This document shows positions 36,815 through 50,010 of a DNA stretch of 62,409 nucleotides, piece after piece. The first letter of the stretch is position 1. Each line of letters begins with the position of its first letter. A model generated the notes under the pieces. That model was not told the DNA's origin and did not search any database. It saw nothing but the letters and a program-made list of their open reading frames with translations. Made by a program: the position numbers and the translations under genes. Source of the stretch: Rhodospirillales bacterium (GTDB lineage: Bacteria; Pseudomonadota; Alphaproteobacteria; Rhodospirillales; UBA2165); the NCBI GenBank assembly GCA_012960465.1, contig DUBF01000198.1:1-62409 (forward strand), written 5' to 3'.

Positions 36815-38347
36815 ATGTTTGATATAATTCGGCAATTAGAAGAAAGAAGGGCGCGAGCGCGAGCTGGCGGGGGTAAAAAGCGGGTTGATGCACAGCACAA
36901 ACGCGGAAAATTGTCTGCGAGAGAACGTATTGATCTATTACTTGATCCTGATACTTTTGAGGAGTGGGATATGTTCGTTGAACACCGCTCAACAGATTTT
37001 GGAATGGAGAAAGAGACAGTACCCGGTGATGGGGTGGTCACTGGTTATGGCACAATAAATGGCCGTACGGTTTTTGTTTATAGCCAAGATTTTACTGTTT
37101 TCGGTGGATCTTTATCTGAAACGCATGCTGAAAAAATTTGTAAAATAATGGACCAGGCAGTTAAAGTTGGGGCTCCAGTAATTGGGTTGAATGATTCGGG
37201 TGGAGCTCGGATCCAGGAAGGTGTTTCAGCTCTAGCGGGCTATGCAGAGGTTTTTGCGCGTAATGTTATGTCATCTGGTGTTATTCCACAAATTTCGACG
37301 ATTATGGGACCGTGTGCCGGAGGGGCTGTTTATTCTCCAGCAGTGACAGATTTCACATTTATGGTCAAAGATACGTCTTATATGTTTGTGACCGGACCAG
37401 ACGTATTAAAAACAGTTACACATGAAGAAGTTACACAAGAAGAGTTGGGTGGTGCACTGACACATACAAATAAATCGGGTGTCGCTGACCTTGCTTTTGA
37501 TAATGACGTAGATGCTATTGAACAATTACGACGGTTTATGGATTTTTTACCTTCTAATAACCGAGAATACCCACCAAACCGTCCAACCAACGATCCCGCT
37601 GACCGACAGGAACCTTCACTCGATACACTAGTGCCCGTTAATCCAAATGAATCCTATGATGTGAAGGAACTCATTACGAAACTTGTTGATGAGGGGGATT
37701 TTTTTGAATTAAAACCAACATTTGCTGCCAATATTGTTACTGGTTTTGGTCGTATAGAGGGATCAACTGTTGGGATTATTGCAAATCAACCTAAGATTTT
37801 AGCTGGCTGCTTAGATATCGATGCTTCAGTAAAGTCAGCACGATTTATAAGGTTTTGCGATTGTTTTAATATCCCGATTATTATGTTGGTTGATGTCCCA
37901 GGTTTTTTACCAGGTACAGCTCAGGAGTATGGCGGGTTAATTCGCCATGGTGCTAAGTTGTTATATGCATTTGCTGAGGCAACAGTACCAAAAGTAACGC
38001 TTATTACCCGGAAAGCATATGGAGGCGCATATATCGTTATGGGCTCCAAACATTTACGCGGGGATGTCAATTTTGCGTGGCCAAGTGCCGAGATAGCTGT
38101 GATGGGTGCTAAAGGAGCTGTTGAGATAATTTTCCGCGCGGATCTTGACGATGAAGAAAAAATAGCTAATCGGGAGAAAGATTATCAAGAACAATTTGCT
38201 AATCCATTTCGGATGGGTGCCAGAGGATATATTGATGATGTGATTATGCCCCATAATACGCGATGGCGTATTGCTCGTTCTTTGCGGATGTTGCGGACCA
38301 AAAAGCTTGAAAATCCGTGGAAAAAACACGGGAATATTCCACTTTAA
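36815..38347 (+). CDS. pccB: Propionyl-CoA carboxylase beta subunit (carboxyltransferase)
   Basis: PccB (510 aa) transfers CO2 from biotin to propionyl-CoA, giving methylmalonyl-CoA. The N-terminal half has [32 protein letters not shown] and the oxyanion-type GGARIQEGV. The C-terminal half has [15 protein letters not shown] and the [15 protein letters not shown] segment near residues 405–419. ATG 36815 gives the family N-terminus; an upstream in-frame ATG (36797) is not needed. The biotin-carrying alpha subunit lies 12 kb away at 50529. The stop overlaps the next gene's ATG by one base. Confidence 0.95.
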
Positions 38348-38817
38348 TGAAAGTATTTATAATCGCTTTTTTAGCTATTTGGCTGAATATACAAACTATC
38401 GAGGCTGCCGATGGTTCTGTAGGCTATTATTATCCGGCACCAAATAATATTGAAAGCTATAAAACTCGCACGCGAGTACATATTAACACAAATCGATTTG
38501 CCCGCAATAATATCATTAAAATGATTACTAATGAATTTCTTAGTAAACCGCATCCGCCAAGATTTGTGATATTTACGAAGGGTACCTTATCTGAGAAATT
38601 AATTATTGTAAGCATGGTCAAAGGTTATTTGGATACCACTTATCGAGCGAGAGCTTTATTAGAAGCCATGACAAAGGTGGTCCGGAGGTCACCGCTGTTT
38701 AAAGATATAAAGTCGGAAACGGTATTGAATTTTTTTGATCTTATAAGAATTTTAGGGTTTAAGAAAATAACAGTTAGCGACGGGGATAAATTCTCTTATC
38801 AAGTATCATTGCGATAA
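38347..38817 (+). CDS. Secreted conserved protein of unknown function
   Basis: This 156-residue protein begins with a signal peptide (about residues 1–20, cleaved near IEAADG), followed by GYYYPAPNN and a mixed alpha/beta stretch with EKLIIVSM, TTYRARALLEAM and KKITVSDGDKFSYQ. No catalytic motif is evident. It starts on the last base of pccB, so it is translationally coupled, and similar small exported proteins accompany pccB in other Alphaproteobacteria. Database names that call such proteins MobA-like are not supported, as there is no nucleotidyltransferase motif and the protein is exported. Confidence 0.8.
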   Translation: MKVFIIAFLAIWLNIQTIEAADGSVGYYYPAPNNIESYKTRTRVHINTNRFARNNIIKMITNEFLSKPHPPRFVIFTKGTLSEKLIIVSMVKGYLDTTYRARALLEAMTKVVRRSPLFKDIKSETVLNFFDLIRILGFKKITVSDGDKFSYQVSLR

Positions 38818-40965: not shown

Positions 40966-41898
40966 ATGCGTATTGTTGTTCATGGTCAAAAAGCCTTTGG
41001 TAAGGCGCTATTAGAACGTCTTCTTGAACGTGACGAGGATGTTGTTGCCGTTTGTAGTGCACCAACAAAATCGGATGAACCAGAAGATCCCTTAGTAGCT
41101 TTCGCGCAGGAGAAAAAATTATCATTGCACCAACCAGAATCATGGAAGACACCAGAATCTCTTGAATTGATGCAATCTTTTGACGCTGATTTGTGTATGA
41201 TGGCTTACGTGTTGTTACTTGTTCCGGAAGCAGTGCTTAATACTCCTAAAATTGGAACTTTTCAGTATCATCCATCATTATTGCCCCACCACCGTGGGCC
41301 ATCCTCTATCAGTTGGCCAATCGCAATGGGTAAGACTATGACGGGTTTAAGTATTTTTTGGCCAGATGACGGCCTTGATGAAGGCCCAGTTTTGCTCACC
41401 AAATCGTGTGATATTGGACCGACAGATACATTGTCTAATATTTATTTTGATAAACTATTTCCTATGGGTATTGATGCTATGGTTGAGAGCTTGGATCTCG
41501 TTAAGGCTGGTATTATTCTTAAGTATACTCAGGATCTAAGTGCGGGTTCTTATGAAAGTTGGTTTACTAAAGAGTTAGCACAAATTGATTGGGATAATCC
41601 GGTAGATGAAGTGTATAATAAAATCCGTGCGGCGGATCCGGCGCCAGGAGCATGGTCAACTATCAAAGGTCAGAATGTCGATTGTCATAAAGCGACTAAG
41701 AGTTTAGAAACCGGGGCACCTGGCTCGATTTTATCGATATCAGATGTTGGAATTTTAATTTCCGCCCAAAACGGATCCATACTCGTCAGCAAAGTACGCC
41801 TAACGGGCGGAAAAAAAATATCCGGCAGTGAATTGGCAGGTGACCTAGAACTCAAGGTTGGTGACATGTTTGATTGCCAACGAGAAGAAGTGAAATGA
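40966..41898 (+). CDS. Stand-alone 10-formyltetrahydrofolate hydrolase-like formyltransferase
   Basis: This 310-residue protein matches the N-terminal hydrolase domain of 10-formyl-THF dehydrogenase (ALDH1L1) rather than methionyl-tRNA formyltransferase. It has GQKAFGK (7–13), the YHPSLLPHHRG loop with catalytic His102, and IFWPDDGLDEGP with Asp138. The His–Asp spacing equals that of the animal enzyme (106/142), and the Asn of true Fmt is replaced by Gln100. The C-terminal OB-like domain follows (about 205–310), but there is no aldehyde dehydrogenase domain. Predicted product: formate plus THF from 10-formyl-THF. It lies convergent to the formate dehydrogenase genes that could oxidise the formate. 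Confidence 0.8.
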   Translation: MRIVVHGQKAFGKALLERLLERDEDVVAVCSAPTKSDEPEDPLVAFAQEKKLSLHQPESWKTPESLELMQSFDADLCMMAYVLLLVPEAVLNTPKIGTFQYHPSLLPHHRGPSSISWPIAMGKTMTGLSIFWPDDGLDEGPVLLTKSCDIGPTDTLSNIYFDKLFPMGIDAMVESLDLVKAGIILKYTQDLSAGSYESWFTKELAQIDWDNPVDEVYNKIRAADPAPGAWSTIKGQNVDCHKATKSLETGAPGSILSISDVGILISAQNGSILVSKVRLTGGKKISGSELAGDLELKVGDMFDCQREEVK

Positions 41899-42086: not shown

Positions 42087-44843
42087 TTAACAGGGTTCTA
42101 CCCTCGCTGCACAAAATTTAAACTCTGGGATTTTTCCGACTGGATCAAGCTGTGGGTTGGTTAATATATTAGCAGCAGCTTCAGAAAAGCAGAATGGGAT
42201 GAATACCATGCCTTCTGGAATATCTTGATCTTGCCTTACTTTTAACGAGATTTCCCCTCGCCGCGTTGAGACTTGTATATCGCTGCCTGGTTTAATGCCC
42301 ATTTTTTGCAGATCTTTTTGATTGAGGCACGCGATGGCTTCAGGTTCTAGAGCATCTAACGTGTTTGAACGACGGGTCATGGATCCCGTATGCCAGTGCT
42401 CAAGAATACGACCAGTGGTAAGTATCATGGGATAGGTGTCATCTGGCAGCTCATTGGGTGGAATGATTTTGGCAGGAACAATCCTTCCAAGGCCGTTTTT
42501 AGTTGGGAAACCAGATCCAAATATGATTTCATTGCCAGGTTGATTTGGTCCATCACATGGAGTGGTAACTGAGCCTTCCCGTTGCAGTCTATCCCAGGTA
42601 ATATTGTTCAGGGATGGCATTGCTTTAGTCATCTCTGAAAATATATCACTAAGAGTTTTATAGTTCCAATTTAGGCCTATGCGATTGGCTATTTCTTGGA
42701 TAAGTTCCCAGTCTTGGCGAGCTTGCCCGGGGGGGCTGATAACGGCTCGAGCCATCTGTATTTCGCGATTTGTGTTTGTAAATGTACCAGATTTTTCAGC
42801 GTGAGCTGTGGCTGGTAAAATAACATCTGCGTGCCAAGCAGTTTCGGTTAAAAAGATGTCCTGGACAACAAGGTGTTTTAGTTTAGCAAGAGCGGCGCGG
42901 GCATGATTTTGATCCGGATCTGACATCGCTGGATTTTCACCTTGTATATACATACCTTTAATTTGATTATCGTGAATAGCATTTATTATTTCAACAACTG
43001 TTAAACCCTTTTTCGGATTTAATTTACTACCCCACATTTTTTCGTATTGGGAGCGAATTTCATCATCTTCTACAGACATATAATCCGGAAACAGCATCGG
43101 GATCAGACCCGCATCAGAAGCACCTTGAACATTGTTTTGGCCGCGCAAAGGGTGAAGTCCGGTACCGGGACGGCCAATTTGGCCGGTTGTTAAAGCTAAG
43201 GCTATTAAACAGCGTGCATTATCTGTACCGTGCACGTGTTGAGATATACCCATGCCCCAAAAAATAATCGATGCTTTAGAATTGGCATAGATACGAGCAA
43301 CTTGTTTGATCTTTTCGGCTGGAATTCCGCAGATTTGTGACATTTTTTCTGGCGAAAATTCGGTTATTTTGTTTTTTAGGTCCTCAAAGCCTTCAGTATG
43401 TCCCTGAACATATTGTTCATCGTATAAATTTTCTGAGATAATTGTATATAACATTGCATTTAGGAGGGAGACGTCGCTTCCTGGCTTAAACTGCAGTATA
43501 TGACTGGCATGACGAGCTATACCTTGTGTCTGTCCTCGAGGGTCCATGACAATCAGTTCAGTTCCGCGTTTTGCGGCATTCTTAATGTATGTTGCGGCAA
43601 CTGGGTGATTTTCAGCTGGTCGAGCGCCGATGACGATGATGCAGTCGGCATCTTCAGCCGCTTTAAATGGTGCTGTGACGGCCCCTGAGTTCAGGCCTTC
43701 CATCAACGCAGCAACAGATGATGCATGGCATAGGCGCGTACAGTGATCGACATTATTCGTAACGAAGCCTTGACGAATTAGTTTCTGAAAAAGGTAAGCT
43801 TCTTCATTAGAGCATTTCGCAGAGCCAAAGCCTGCTATTGATGTACCAGGATCTTTATCCGAAATATCTTTGAGTCCGTGTGCAGCACGGTCTAGTGCTT
43901 CTTCCCAGGTTGCTTCACGGAAATAGGTCCCAATTTCATTTTGGGAAATTTTGATATTTGGATTTTTTGGCGCGTCATCACGTCGAATGAGCGGTACTTT
44001 TAGGCGATCTGGGTGATGAGCATAGTCAAAACCGAAACGGCCCTTAACACACAGCCGACTGTTGTTTGCCGGTCCATTCCGCCCATCTACATATAAAATT
44101 TTATCATCTTTGATATGGACGTTGGTCTGACAGCCAACACCACAATAAGGGCAAAGGGTTTTAACAGAACGGTCTTCATATTCGGTTCTGATACCTTGTT
44201 CGTTCAGAAGGTTACCCTCCATTAACGCTCCTGTAGGGCAAGCCTGCACACATTCACCACAGGCGACACAAGTCGAACTACCCATTGCCGTATCAAAATC
44301 AAAAACAATTTTTGCTTGGTGACCTCGATTAGCCATACCAATAACGTCGTTGGATTGAACCTCGCGGCAAGCACGGACACATAAGTTACACTGAATACAG
44401 GCATCCAAATGAACGGCGATTGCGGTATGCGACTTGTCGGCTTCTGGTTGGGCCTTCGTGGGATAGCGTTCGGATGGGTTAAGATCGATTTTATCTACCC
44501 AATCCCAGAACTTTGACTTTGGGTCGTGTGAATTTTCGCGAAGTGGTTGATCGACGTGTAAAAGTTCAAAAACCATTTTGCGTGATTTTTTTGCTCGCTC
44601 GCTGGCAGTGTTGACAATCATACCTTCAGTGGGTTGACGTATGCAGGAGGCAGCTAGTGTTCGCTCTCCATCAATCTCCACCATGCAGGCTCGGCAGTTT
44701 CCGTCGGCACGGTAACTCTTTTCGGGTAAATAACAGAGATGAGGTATCTCAATACCTAGGCGATTGGCAACCTGCCAAATGGTCTCCTCCGGCCTTGCGG
44801 TTACGTTTTGTCCATTAATTTCGAAATTGACTTGATCGCTCAT
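42087..44843 (-). CDS. fdsA: NAD-dependent formate dehydrogenase alpha subunit (molybdopterin, FdsA)
   Basis: This 918-residue subunit oxidises formate to CO2 at a bis-MGD molybdenum or tungsten centre. N-terminal cysteines 37, 50, 53 and 67 form the [2Fe-2S] ferredoxin domain. CIQCNLCVRAC (149–159) and CVACGECVQAC (192–202) hold two [4Fe-4S] clusters, and Cys 231, 234, 238 and 265 a further one. The metal ligand is Cys372 (LCHASS), so this is a cysteine, not a selenocysteine, enzyme. It overlaps fdsGB by four bases (ATGA). The accessory genes fdsC and fdsD do not follow. Confidence 0.95.
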   Translation of the reverse strand: MSDQVNFEINGQNVTARPEETIWQVANRLGIEIPHLCYLPEKSYRADGNCRACMVEIDGERTLAASCIRQPTEGMIVNTASERAKKSRKMVFELLHVDQPLRENSHDPKSKFWDWVDKIDLNPSERYPTKAQPEADKSHTAIAVHLDACIQCNLCVRACREVQSNDVIGMANRGHQAKIVFDFDTAMGSSTCVACGECVQACPTGALMEGNLLNEQGIRTEYEDRSVKTLCPYCGVGCQTNVHIKDDKILYVDGRNGPANNSRLCVKGRFGFDYAHHPDRLKVPLIRRDDAPKNPNIKISQNEIGTYFREATWEEALDRAAHGLKDISDKDPGTSIAGFGSAKCSNEEAYLFQKLIRQGFVTNNVDHCTRLCHASSVAALMEGLNSGAVTAPFKAAEDADCIIVIGARPAENHPVAATYIKNAAKRGTELIVMDPRGQTQGIARHASHILQFKPGSDVSLLNAMLYTIISENLYDEQYVQGHTEGFEDLKNKITEFSPEKMSQICGIPAEKIKQVARIYANSKASIIFWGMGISQHVHGTDNARCLIALALTTGQIGRPGTGLHPLRGQNNVQGASDAGLIPMLFPDYMSVEDDEIRSQYEKMWGSKLNPKKGLTVVEIINAIHDNQIKGMYIQGENPAMSDPDQNHARAALAKLKHLVVQDIFLTETAWHADVILPATAHAEKSGTFTNTNREIQMARAVISPPGQARQDWELIQEIANRIGLNWNYKTLSDIFSEMTKAMPSLNNITWDRLQREGSVTTPCDGPNQPGNEIIFGSGFPTKNGLGRIVPAKIIPPNELPDDTYPMILTTGRILEHWHTGSMTRRSNTLDALEPEAIACLNQKDLQKMGIKPGSDIQVSTRRGEISLKVRQDQDIPEGMVFIPFCFSEAAANILTNPQLDPVGKIPEFKFCAARVEPC

Positions 44844-46534
44844 TTAATATGCTCCGGAAAATATTTGAGGACCGAGAGTAGAGGGTTTGGAGCTGCTTGC
44901 CCAAGTCCGCAGATTGACGCATCTGCCATTACAATGGCTAAGTCTTCAAGAGCTACAGTATCCCATTTATCTTTTTCCATAAGTCGGGCTGCTTTTTCTG
45001 TGCCAGATCGGCAAGGGGTGCATTGCCCGCAGCTTTCGTCTTCAAAGAATTTCATCAGATTAAGTGCGACGGCCTTTGGATCATCCTGATCGGAGAAAAT
45101 AACCACGGCATGTGAGCCTACAAGGCAGCCATATTGCTCAAGTTGACCAAAATCGAGAGGAAGGTTAGCCATATTTGCGGGTAAAATACCTCCCGAAGCC
45201 CCGCCCGGAAGATAACCCTTAAAAGTGTGTCCATCTAGCATGCCGCCGGAGTGTTCTATTAGTTCGAGGGCAGTACTGCCTGCAGCCACGAGTTTCACAC
45301 CGGGTTCTTTAACCCGACCTGAAACCGAATAACTCCTAAAGTCTTTCCCTTTTTCTTTATCTTGCGATGTAAACCAATCAGATCCATATTGGAGTATTTT
45401 TGGCACCCAAAAGAGTGTTTCAACATTGTTCACCAGCGTAGGGCGACCAAAGATGCCAACTTGGGCGACATAAGGGGGACGATGCCGAGGTAGACCCCTC
45501 TTGCCTTCTATCGATTCGATCATTGCTGATTCTTCGCCGCATATATATGCGCCAGCGCCGCGCCTGAGATGGATCTTAGTGTGAGAAGATAGTCCGGCTT
45601 TTTCAAGGGCGGCTATTTCTTTCAGCAGAATTTCACGAGCTGCTGGATATTCGTCGCGCAAATAAATGAATACGGTTTGTGCTTCAATCGCCCACGCACC
45701 GATCAGCATACCTTCAAGAAAGCTATGAGGACTAGTTTCTAAATAATGTCGGTCTTTAAATGTCCCGGGCTCGCCTTCATCTGCGTTGACAGCCATGAGC
45801 CGCGGTTGTGCCTCAGCTCGGACATAGCTCCATTTTTGTCCCGTCGGGAATCCTGCTCCGCCTAACCCTTTAAGGTTACTGTTCGATAGTTCTTTAATAA
45901 CTGCATCAATGGCTCGTTCGCCATTGATGCAGGTCTTAAGTATTGCGTAGCCGCCATCATTTTGGTAGGCAGCTAGGTCTTGATATTTGGGGATTTTAGG
46001 ATTGAAGTCCCCACGCTCTAGTACTGCTTGAATAGCTTCAGGTGTTGCGTGATCAACATGACGGTGGCCGATTTCACATACAGGCGCGGTGTCGCATCTT
46101 CCCATGCAAGGCGCTCGGATAATTCGAACATTCTCGTGGGCTTGGCTTTCGAGTGATTCAAAAAGTTGATCAGCTTTAGCAAGTGCGCAACTGATCGAAT
46201 CGCATACACGGATGGTTATGGGTGGGGGGGGAGCTTCACCATCAGCGGTAACGTCAAAATGCGCATAAAATGTCGCGACCTCATACACCTCGGCCATTGG
46301 AATACCTAACGCATTAGCCAGCGCCTGCATATTTCCTTCCGAAAGGTGACCTTCCTGATCTTGGATTGCATGAAGATACTCTATAAGCATGTGCCGTTCA
46401 AAGGGCCTTTCCCCGATGATGTTTTGGACCGCGTCGCTATCGGTTGCTGACATTTTACGGCCTTTAGCGAAAAACAGTGCTTTTTTTTCGCCTGAACCAG
46501 GATGGATGTTGCGAGGCTTTTTTTGTTTATTCAT
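44840..46534 (-). CDS. fdsB: Formate dehydrogenase diaphorase subunit, FdsG–FdsB fusion
   Basis: A 564-residue NuoE–NuoF-type fusion that passes electrons from formate to NAD+. The N-terminal part (about 45–160) is a complete NuoE/FdsG domain with Cys 111, 116, 143 and 147 for a [2Fe-2S] cluster. The NuoF/FdsB part has the FMN/NADH glycine-rich stretches LKGLGGAGFPTG (221–232) and RRGAGAYICGEE (324–335). The [4Fe-4S] ligands are ESCGQCTPC (502, 505, 508) and Cys542. Start 46534 has a weak GGA site; Met28 is an alternative. It is followed by overlapping fdsA. Confidence 0.93.
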   Translation of the reverse strand: MNKQKKPRNIHPGSGEKKALFFAKGRKMSATDSDAVQNIIGERPFERHMLIEYLHAIQDQEGHLSEGNMQALANALGIPMAEVYEVATFYAHFDVTADGEAPPPPITIRVCDSISCALAKADQLFESLESQAHENVRIIRAPCMGRCDTAPVCEIGHRHVDHATPEAIQAVLERGDFNPKIPKYQDLAAYQNDGGYAILKTCINGERAIDAVIKELSNSNLKGLGGAGFPTGQKWSYVRAEAQPRLMAVNADEGEPGTFKDRHYLETSPHSFLEGMLIGAWAIEAQTVFIYLRDEYPAAREILLKEIAALEKAGLSSHTKIHLRRGAGAYICGEESAMIESIEGKRGLPRHRPPYVAQVGIFGRPTLVNNVETLFWVPKILQYGSDWFTSQDKEKGKDFRSYSVSGRVKEPGVKLVAAGSTALELIEHSGGMLDGHTFKGYLPGGASGGILPANMANLPLDFGQLEQYGCLVGSHAVVIFSDQDDPKAVALNLMKFFEDESCGQCTPCRSGTEKAARLMEKDKWDTVALEDLAIVMADASICGLGQAAPNPLLSVLKYFPEHIK

Positions 46535-46995: not shown

Positions 46996-48714
46996 ATGGC
47001 AACGAAAAAAGAAGAAGTAGCTAGACTGACGGATGGGTTCCATCTGGTTATCGACGCACTTAAGCTTAATAATATCAAAACCATCTATAACGTTCCGGGT
47101 ATACCAATTACTGATTTAGGACGTTACATGCAAGCCGCTGGGATGCGTGTTTTATCTTTCAGGCATGAGCAAAATGCCGGTTATGCTGCTGCTATCGCTG
47201 GTTTTTTGACAAAAAAGCCTGGAATTTGTCTGACGGTTTCAGCTCCAGGTTTTCTAAATGGTCTGACAGCGCTAGCACACGCCACCACAAATTGTTTTCC
47301 AATGATCCTTATCAGTGGGTCCTCTGAACGTGAAATAGTTGATTTACAACAAGGTGATTATGAGGAAATGGATCAACTGGCCATTGCTAGACCGTTATGT
47401 AAGGCAGCTTATCGGGTGTTGAATGCTGAGGATATTGGTATAGGTATTGCTCGAGCTATTAGGGCATCGGTTTCGGGCCGGCCCGGTGGAGTTTATCTGG
47501 ATCTACCGGCAAAACTCTTTGCGCAAGTTATGGATTCTGATGTGGGTGAAAGTTCACTAGTGAAAGTCGTCGATGCTGCCCCCCGACAGTTGCCAGCGCC
47601 CGATGCGATCGATCGTGCACTCGATGTCCTGAAAGAAGCTAAGCGGCCTTTAATTATTTTGGGTAAAGGTGCCGCTTATTCTCAGGCCGATGATGCCATA
47701 AGAGAATTAATTGAAAAGAGCGGTGTGCCCTATTTAGCTATGAGTATGGCTAAGGGTTTATTGCCGGATACGCATCCTCAATCGGCTGGAGCCGCGCGTT
47801 CGCTTGTTTTAAAGGAATCAGATGTAGTGATGTTAATCGGTGCACGACTAAATTGGTTATTGTCGCATGGAAAGGGAAAGTCGTGGGGTGATAAACCTAA
47901 GCAGTTTATCCATATCGATATTGAACCTAGGGAGATGGATAGTAATGTCGAGATTGTAGCGCCTGTCGTCGGCGATATAGGTTCTTGTGTGGAATCTTTA
48001 CTTGGGGGAATAGCTAGTATCGAATGGACGCCGCCATCCGCGGCCTGGACCAAATTGATCAAAGATAAAGTAGAGAGCAATATTATACGGATGGCCTCGC
48101 GATTACAAAACAACAATATACCGATGGACTATCATGGTGCTTTAGGCTCGCTACGTACAGTCATTAAAGAGCGGCCAGAAACAATACTAGTTAATGAAGG
48201 GGCTAATACACTCGATTTTGCGCGGAGTATTATTGATATGTACCAGCCCCGTAAACGGTTGGATGTAGGCACCTGGGGCGTTATGGGTGTCGGGATGGGT
48301 ACAGCAATAGCTGCCGCAGTTGAGACTGGAAACCCTGTGTTGGCAATTGAAGGCGACAGCGCATTTGGATTTTCTGGGATGGAGATTGAAACTATCTGCA
48401 GATATAATTTGCCGATATGTGTAGTCGTTTTTAATAATGGTGGTATTTATCGTGGTACTGATGTGAATCCTACAGGCGATAAAGACGTCGCAACGACGGT
48501 TTTTGTTAAGGAAGCGCGTTATGATAAAATGATGGAGGCTTTTGGTGGTGTCGGAGTTAATGTTTCCTCACCTGATGAATTAAGCCGGGCAGTTAACGCC
48601 GCAATAGATTCTGCAAAACCAACTCTGGTAAATGCTGTGATTGATGAGGCGGCGGGTACTGAGAGTGGTCGGATCGGAAATCTTAACCCGCAAAGTGTGG
48701 TTGGTAAGAATTAA
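46996..48714 (+). CDS. oxc: Oxalyl-CoA decarboxylase
   Basis: Oxc (572 aa) is a thiamine-diphosphate enzyme that converts oxalyl-CoA to formyl-CoA and CO2. Length and sequence follow the Oxalobacter enzyme. The catalytic Glu58 lies in [15 protein letters not shown], the ADP-regulatory/CoA Rossmann-like domain is in the middle, and the ThDP motif runs from GDSAFGF (453) to FNN (479–481). ATG 46996 with GGAGAAG is preferred over the TTG at 46969. The next gene encodes the CoA-transferase that makes its substrate. The protein itself shows no defects. Confidence 0.95.
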
Positions 48715-48744: not shown

Positions 48745-50010
48745 ATGAGTAAAGCTTTAGAGGGAATAAAGATACTTGACTTCACCCATGTTCAGTCAGG
48801 ACCGACATGTACTCAGCTTTTAGCATGGTTTGGTGCTGATGTGATTAAAGTAGAGCGACCCGGTGTTGGCGATGCAACCAGAGGGCAGTTGCGCGATGTT
48901 CCGGATGCAGATTCACTTTATTTCACGATGCTAAATCATAACAAACGATCGATAGAACTAAATACAAAAGATGAAACAGGTAAAGAGGTACTTATTAGAT
49001 TAATCAAGACTTGTGATGTATTAGTCGAAAATTTTTCGCCAGGAGCTATCGATCGAATGGGATTTGCATGGGAGAGAATTCAAGAAATTAATCCAAAAAT
49101 GATCCTCGCCTCTATTAAGGGATTCGGGCCAGGACCTTATCAGGATTGCAAGGTGTACGAAAATATAGCGCAATGTGCCGGTGGAGCAGCATCCACAACT
49201 GGTATGCTAGGTGATGTTCCCTTGGTCACTGGTGCGCAAATAGGCGATTCTGGGACCGGGCTACATCTTGCATTTGGTATTGTCACTGCATTATTTCACC
49301 GAGAATAATCGGGCCGAGGTCAGAAAGTTTCGGCGTCCATGCAGGACGGCGTATTAAATTTATGCCGGGTTAAATTACGTGATCAACAACGTCTAGAATC
49401 TGGCCCCTTAGAGGAGTATTCTCAATTTGGTGAAAGTGTGCCTTTTGGTGAAGCAACTCCCCGAGCAGGAAATGATTCTGGTGGTGGGCAGCCTGGCCGT
49501 ATTCTTAAATGTAAGGGCTGGGAGAAAGATCCAGATGCTTATACTTATTTTATTACACAAGCCGCTGTTTGGAAAAATATTTGTGATGTTATTGGGAAGC
49601 CGGAATGGAAAGAGGATCCTGATTACGCAACGCCGAAGTCCCGATTACCTCGACTTAACGAGATCTTTGGGACTATTGAAAAGTGGACAATGACTAAAAC
49701 AAAATTCGAAGTAATGGATATATGTAATGAATACGATATACCAATTGGACCTATTCTATCTTTTAAGGAGTTGGCTGAAGAGGAGTCTCTGCGCGCTACA
49801 GGTACAATTGTTGAAGTTGAACATCCTGAACGTGGGACATATTTGTCAGTAGGAAACCCAGTTAAGTTATCGGGCTCCCCTGTTGAAGTTTTGAGGTCAC
49901 CATTGCTAGGTGAACATACGCAAGAAATTTTGCGTGATGTTTTAAATTACTCTGATAAAGAGATTGAGGGTATTAGAGCGTCAGGTGCAGTAGGCGAAAA
50001 AAAGAAATAG
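48745..50010 (+). pseudogene. frc: Formyl-CoA:oxalate CoA-transferase, interrupted by an in-frame TAA
   Basis: Class III CoA-transferase that moves CoA from formyl-CoA to oxalate. Read as one frame it gives about 421 residues, close to the 428 of Oxalobacter Frc. The catalytic Asp is present in [11 protein letters not shown] (residue 168 from ATG 48745) and the glycine loop is GGGQPG. The frame is broken by TAA at 49306–49308, after FHRE and before [14 protein letters not shown], where homologues have a Lys codon. AAA to TAA would explain it. Both halves are otherwise well conserved and no frameshift exists. The ATG at 49339 has no ribosome-binding site. Either a recent nonsense mutation or a sequencing/assembly error. 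Confidence 0.9.

Follow-up and report, generated by a model that had tools for sequence, protein, structure and literature searches.

The closest described counterparts of the gene studied here are the known formyl-CoA:oxalate CoA-transferases (Frc), namely E. coli YfdW and Oxalobacter FRC, which belong to the class III CoA-transferases and to family TIGR03253. The available portion of PMC9196870 deals with the role of the catalytic Asp in class III CoA-transferases and describes enzymes of this type as interlocked dimers. In Pseudomonas abietaniphila, a podA (formyl-CoA transferase) mutant lost oxalate protection, and PodA has only 30% identity to Oxalobacter FRC, as far as the accessible part of PMC6994688 goes. 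In the DNA analysed here (the window, i.e., the whole stretch of 62,409 nucleotides, contig DUBF01000198.1 of an uncultured Rhodospirillales bacterium) we find an frc whose best solved relative is YfdW (1pqy, over residues 2-416), and which keeps the catalytic Asp, the glycine loop and the adjacency to oxc of the known enzymes. Unlike them, however, this gene for the enzyme with which oxalate breakdown starts is broken by a TAA at codon 188; the probable cause is a nonsense mutation with loss of function that arose very recently in the sampled strain and may be confined to it. The features concerned are as follows.

42087..46534, minus strand: formate dehydrogenase genes, recognised by Pfam domains (alpha 42087-44843, NuoE/NuoF-like 44840-46534), divergent from oxc-frc
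46996..48714, plus strand: oxc, oxalyl-CoA decarboxylase, intact; likely start ATG 46996, in an ORF open from TTG 46969
48745..49308, plus strand: first part of the oxalate-CoA-transferase gene frc, 187 aa from ATG 48745 to the premature TAA; TIGR03253 positions 2-187
49306..49308, plus strand: premature TAA of frc, codon 188, followed by T; CAA in the nearest relative
49309..50010, plus strand: second part of frc, 233 codons, ending at TAG 50008-50010; TIGR03253 positions 189-416
49339..49341, plus strand: ATG, first in-frame start codon past the stop, a possible but poor restart

The TAA lies in the reading frame set by ATG 48745, which from 49309 onwards meets no further stop before the terminal TAG. 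Read through the TAA, frc scores 695.3 bits against TIGR03253 (positions 2-416 of 416, with the one TAA inside), where the curated cut-off of this frc equivalog model is 504.2 bits; the halves taken singly score 338.8 and 339.0 bits, each below it, so that the gene passes the cut-off only when read through and its frame is not uninterrupted. The two halves cover neighbouring stretches of the model (2-187 and 189-416), with no part lost or displaced between them, which rules out a frameshift or deletion. The catalytic Asp is residue 168, in the first half (GDSGTG starts at residue 167), and the GGGQPG loop occupies residues 246-251, in the second. The neighbouring oxc, which ends 30 bases before the frc ATG, reaches 1000 bits against TIGR03254 as a protein and 999.8 in the genome search (cut-off 739.4), with no stop inside. 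In these respects the initial annotation, which had described a lone in-frame TAA in an otherwise intact frc, no frameshift, the Asp and the glycine loop on either side of the stop and an intact adjacent oxc, was accurate.

Its account of how the TAA arose fares less well. It held that homologues carry Lys at this site, that one A-to-T change explains the stop, and that close relatives should be compared there. For this comparison we used 93 frc loci, made up of the best 80 of 578 confirmed on GTDB contigs and 13 over the cut-off in relatives' genomes, which give 90 distinct sequences once identical ones are merged. Among these 90 relatives codon 188 encodes Lys in only 36, the remainder having H (16), R (15), Q (10), T (7), M (3), A (2) and V (1), and it is the 12th most variable of the 416 columns scored. 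The position is thus a variable one, and the stop is not shared: the same 90 sequences are all free of stops up to residue 416, and in three of them a stop at 417-419 is regarded as the ordinary end of the gene. The nearest relative in the set comes from the same genus (genome G002, loci L047 and L021), is 90% identical, has CAA (Gln) at codon 188 and an open frame, and groups with the window gene in a tree of 31 rows with support 100/99; the next-nearest have CAG, ACA, ACG and AAG. The gene order in G002 is malic enzyme, HI0933-like, lipB, acylphosphatase, pccA, frc and oxc, the last being cut by the contig end. Because it retains the same neighbours as the window (pccA-frc-oxc), we take its frc as the orthologue, and with CAA in a syntenic orthologue of the same genus a C-to-T change at 49306, a common transition, is simpler than the A-to-T change, which finds no support. 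The direction of change, judged from the codons observed, would then be from Gln to stop.

A C-to-T change at 49306 would convert the Gln codon to TAA and end frc after 187 codons. The truncated product would have neither the glycine loop nor the latter half of the interlocked-dimer fold, and as both are missing no formyl-CoA:oxalate CoA-transferase activity would be expected of it. The oxc product would then lose the enzyme that normally provides its oxalyl-CoA, unless some other one stands in. That the lesion is real in the organism, and that frc activity is lost with it, is what we infer from the sequence comparisons.

Two ways in which the gene could still work despite its stop deserve attention. 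In the first, ribosomes would read through the UAA, or a tRNA would suppress it, so that full-length enzyme is made. Constraint behind the stop is unrelaxed, as this would have it, and the genome has a tRNA-Gln(UUG), named as a UAA misreader in the yeast work covered by the available text of PMC5289835. The stop is, however, UAA followed by U, which is not a leaky context; the same portion of PMC5289835 gives UAAU as the suggested most efficient bacterial termination signal and cites UAA as the stop least read through, in line with the initial annotation's view of TAA as the least leaky stop. Nor is the stop conserved among orthologues, as recoding would require (0/90, from the best 80 of 578 GTDB loci plus the 13), and TAA ends 19 of the 36 plus-strand window ORFs looked at, the premature stop excluded. 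No UUA anticodon is present in the 34 of 36 genome tRNA matches that ARAGORN typed, an incomplete list, for which 150 of the 217 candidates were scored and which has no Tyr or Ile tRNA. An extra scan for the pattern of a UUA anticodon loop with a T-arm behind it gave 45 places (67 in the reversed control), around all of which ARAGORN found only Leu(UAG) and Lys(UUU) tRNAs. An ochre suppressor tRNA was therefore not found either among the typed tRNAs, from which Tyr and Ile are missing, or at the 45 places. Functional readthrough or suppression is scarcely credible on this evidence, and the annotation's opinion that readthrough is unlikely is supported by the UAA-U context and by the absence of a UUA tRNA from the incomplete list. 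Its statement that TAA has no known sense recoding was too strong in general, as some ciliates read TAA as Gln; we know of no bacterium that does so.

In the second, ribosomes would restart at ATG 49339, 30 bases past the stop, and the two polypeptides would assemble into a two-piece enzyme. Both halves are conserved, the distance from stop to ATG is short, and reinitiation is called frequent in prokaryotes in the part of PMC5972666 available. Against this, ATG 49339 has no Shine-Dalgarno sequence: its anti-Shine-Dalgarno pairing is -1.7 vs -6.0 at the true start, ATG 48745, which has the Shine-Dalgarno-like AGAGGAAG just 5' of it, and 74% of 120 internal Met codons from five window genes pair as well as ATG 49339 or better. 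A restart there would also lose the SGRGQKV-type stretch kept in relatives, no split frc occurs among the 90 relatives (best 80 of 578 GTDB loci plus 13), and the interlocked dimers formed by such class III CoA-transferases speak against assembly from two pieces. We regard such a two-piece frc as highly improbable. The broader proposition, in which a split enzyme via ATG 49339 or trace UAA readthrough means that the stop throttles rather than abolishes oxalate use, is hardly more than a slim chance, and readthrough and a split enzyme are both unlikely.

How long the stop has been there can be judged from the sequence behind it. Between the window and G002, NG86 estimates for frc are dN 0.041 and dS 1.485 before the stop and dN 0.060 and dS 1.38 after it (dN/dS about 0.04), alongside dN 0.085 and dS 1.612 for the partial oxc (295 codons). 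Among invariant frc columns (i.e., the same in all other sequences, with at least 70 filled), the window departs from none of the 67 after the stop and from none of the 80 before it. We also counted lineage-specific amino-acid changes at the columns on which 70% or more of 13 outgroups agree; after the stop there are 3 for the window, 4 for G002 and 1 unassigned, and before the stop 3, 5 and 1. Counts so alike in the two lineages mean that the stop, if real, postdates nearly all of their divergence, and from these figures we estimate that release from constraint over as little as a few per cent of the branch should have left more changes than are seen. An old pseudogene is thus unsupported, constraint behind the stop being unrelaxed. 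What is seen is a frame broken where the orthologues are open (0/90 interrupted) with no decay behind the lesion, as in single-lesion young bacterial pseudogenes, which likewise have one nonsense codon, an intact remainder and open orthologues in relatives; we saw nothing that sets the window frc apart from them.

The absence of decay behind the stop implies that the lesion is either very young or absent from the organism, and a consensus error in a fragmented assembly, or a base called from mixed strains, fits the same facts as a real nonsense mutation. In that case the frc of the organism would be intact. The assembly consists of 245 contigs with a contamination estimate of 2.91, and a single base is concerned; the downstream half of frc is under full constraint and both frc and oxc are without decay, as intact function would give; and in all 10 genomes with oxc over the cut-off frc is over its own, so that a working pair is expected. 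Other lone lesions occur in the genome as well. Internal stops were seen in 2 of 34 MFS matches, of which the one that coincides with a run of N is left out of the count, and one further MFS gene has a frameshift. They were seen, however, in none of the 79 ABC, 43 SDR and 11 oxc-model matches, and among the nine class III CoA-transferases only in frc (1/9, with 0/8 for the others), from which it follows that errors creating stops are not widespread. A deep consensus seldom contains substitution errors. We therefore hold an error at this base to be a possible but rather doubtful explanation, next to the probable one of a recent nonsense mutation.

Some details of the other lesions may be added. 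Two of the apparent interruptions coincide with runs of N and were not counted, and the inspection covered five of six stretches, all but L174. At contig C73:10742-11776 (L169) an MFS transporter gene has a lone in-frame TAG near its start, where six homologues found by motif have TGG (all of the same genus, 55-58% identical; nine were fetched and seven motif-searched, one of another genus being missed by the motif). Here too, with TGG turned into TAG, C:G is replaced by T:A. At contig C223:328-1334 (L171) an MFS transporter gene lies in two frames, with a frameshift. Together with the broken oxc of another genome of the same family (G021), these cases suggest that lone lesions are nothing special here, and imperfect assembly could have produced them in several genes as well as real mutations could. 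A window full of broken genes is rejected for the part from 29533 on: of 20 other ORFs there that were scanned against Pfam, 19 have a family match and one (38317-38817) has none, and among these 20 no neighbouring pair matches adjoining parts of one family.

Whether another enzyme could take over depends on what else the genome encodes. The initial annotation had proposed looking for a second frc or another class III CoA-transferase; the assembly has nine of the latter, of which only the window gene is over the frc cut-off. No second frc equivalog is found in it, the other eight reaching at best 246.8 bits vs the TIGR03253 cut-off of 504.2, nor is there a YfdE among these eight, whose best score against PRK11430, scanned whole, is 273.7 vs a cut-off of 522. 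A second frc elsewhere in the assembly is thus rejected, and a side activity in the other eight could exist.

The distribution of the pair bears on how its loss is to be seen. With the own genome included, frc is over the cut-off in 14 of 60 genomes, 3 of them among the 9 of the genus, and is patchily distributed; oxc is over the cut-off in 10 of the 60, each of which also has frc over its own, so that no genome of the 60 showed an oxc that lacked frc. The remaining frc genomes include G002, whose oxc runs off the contig, and G021, whose oxc lies in two overlapping frames (L164:2585-4343, residues 4-348 and 345-570) next to an open frc. In two more, G048 and G050, the neighbour of frc is a different TPP enzyme. 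At L166:3120-6081 and L167:2480-5673, an frc over the cut-off adjoins a TPP enzyme that matches acetolactate synthase and 2-hydroxyacyl-CoA lyase models better than oxc models and passes no cut-off shown; there, frc appears to be paired with a different lyase-like enzyme.

Upstream of oxc, the formate dehydrogenase alpha subunit (TIGR01591 748.5 bits, cut-off 666.25) belongs to an enzyme that could take formate from the oxc-frc pathway. Its frame is open over 918 aa; ARAGORN places a tRNA-SeC gene at contig C123:6803-6892 (L161) of the same genome. Adjoining the formate dehydrogenase genes, about 5 kb from oxc, the ORF at 40966-41898 encodes a formyltransferase-like protein (138.4 bits, below the Fmt cut-off of 201.5), with homologues that neighbour frc in G021, G048 and G050, and oxc in G010. 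This protein may handle one-carbon units from the oxalate pathway.

Our literature search returned nothing on nonsense mutations in genomes assembled from metagenomes, nor on marine oxalate, and the pseudogene count in the accessible part of PMC8604369 is genome-wide. Most likely the frc lesion is of the ordinary loss-of-function type, with nothing unusual in the decoding of the gene. The frc sequence alone gives no ground to credit this genome with an oxalate pathway, nor to deny it one. If the stop is real, we would be looking at an oxc that has lost its partner and is only just beginning to decay, in a lineage that keeps the frc-oxc pair only patchily.
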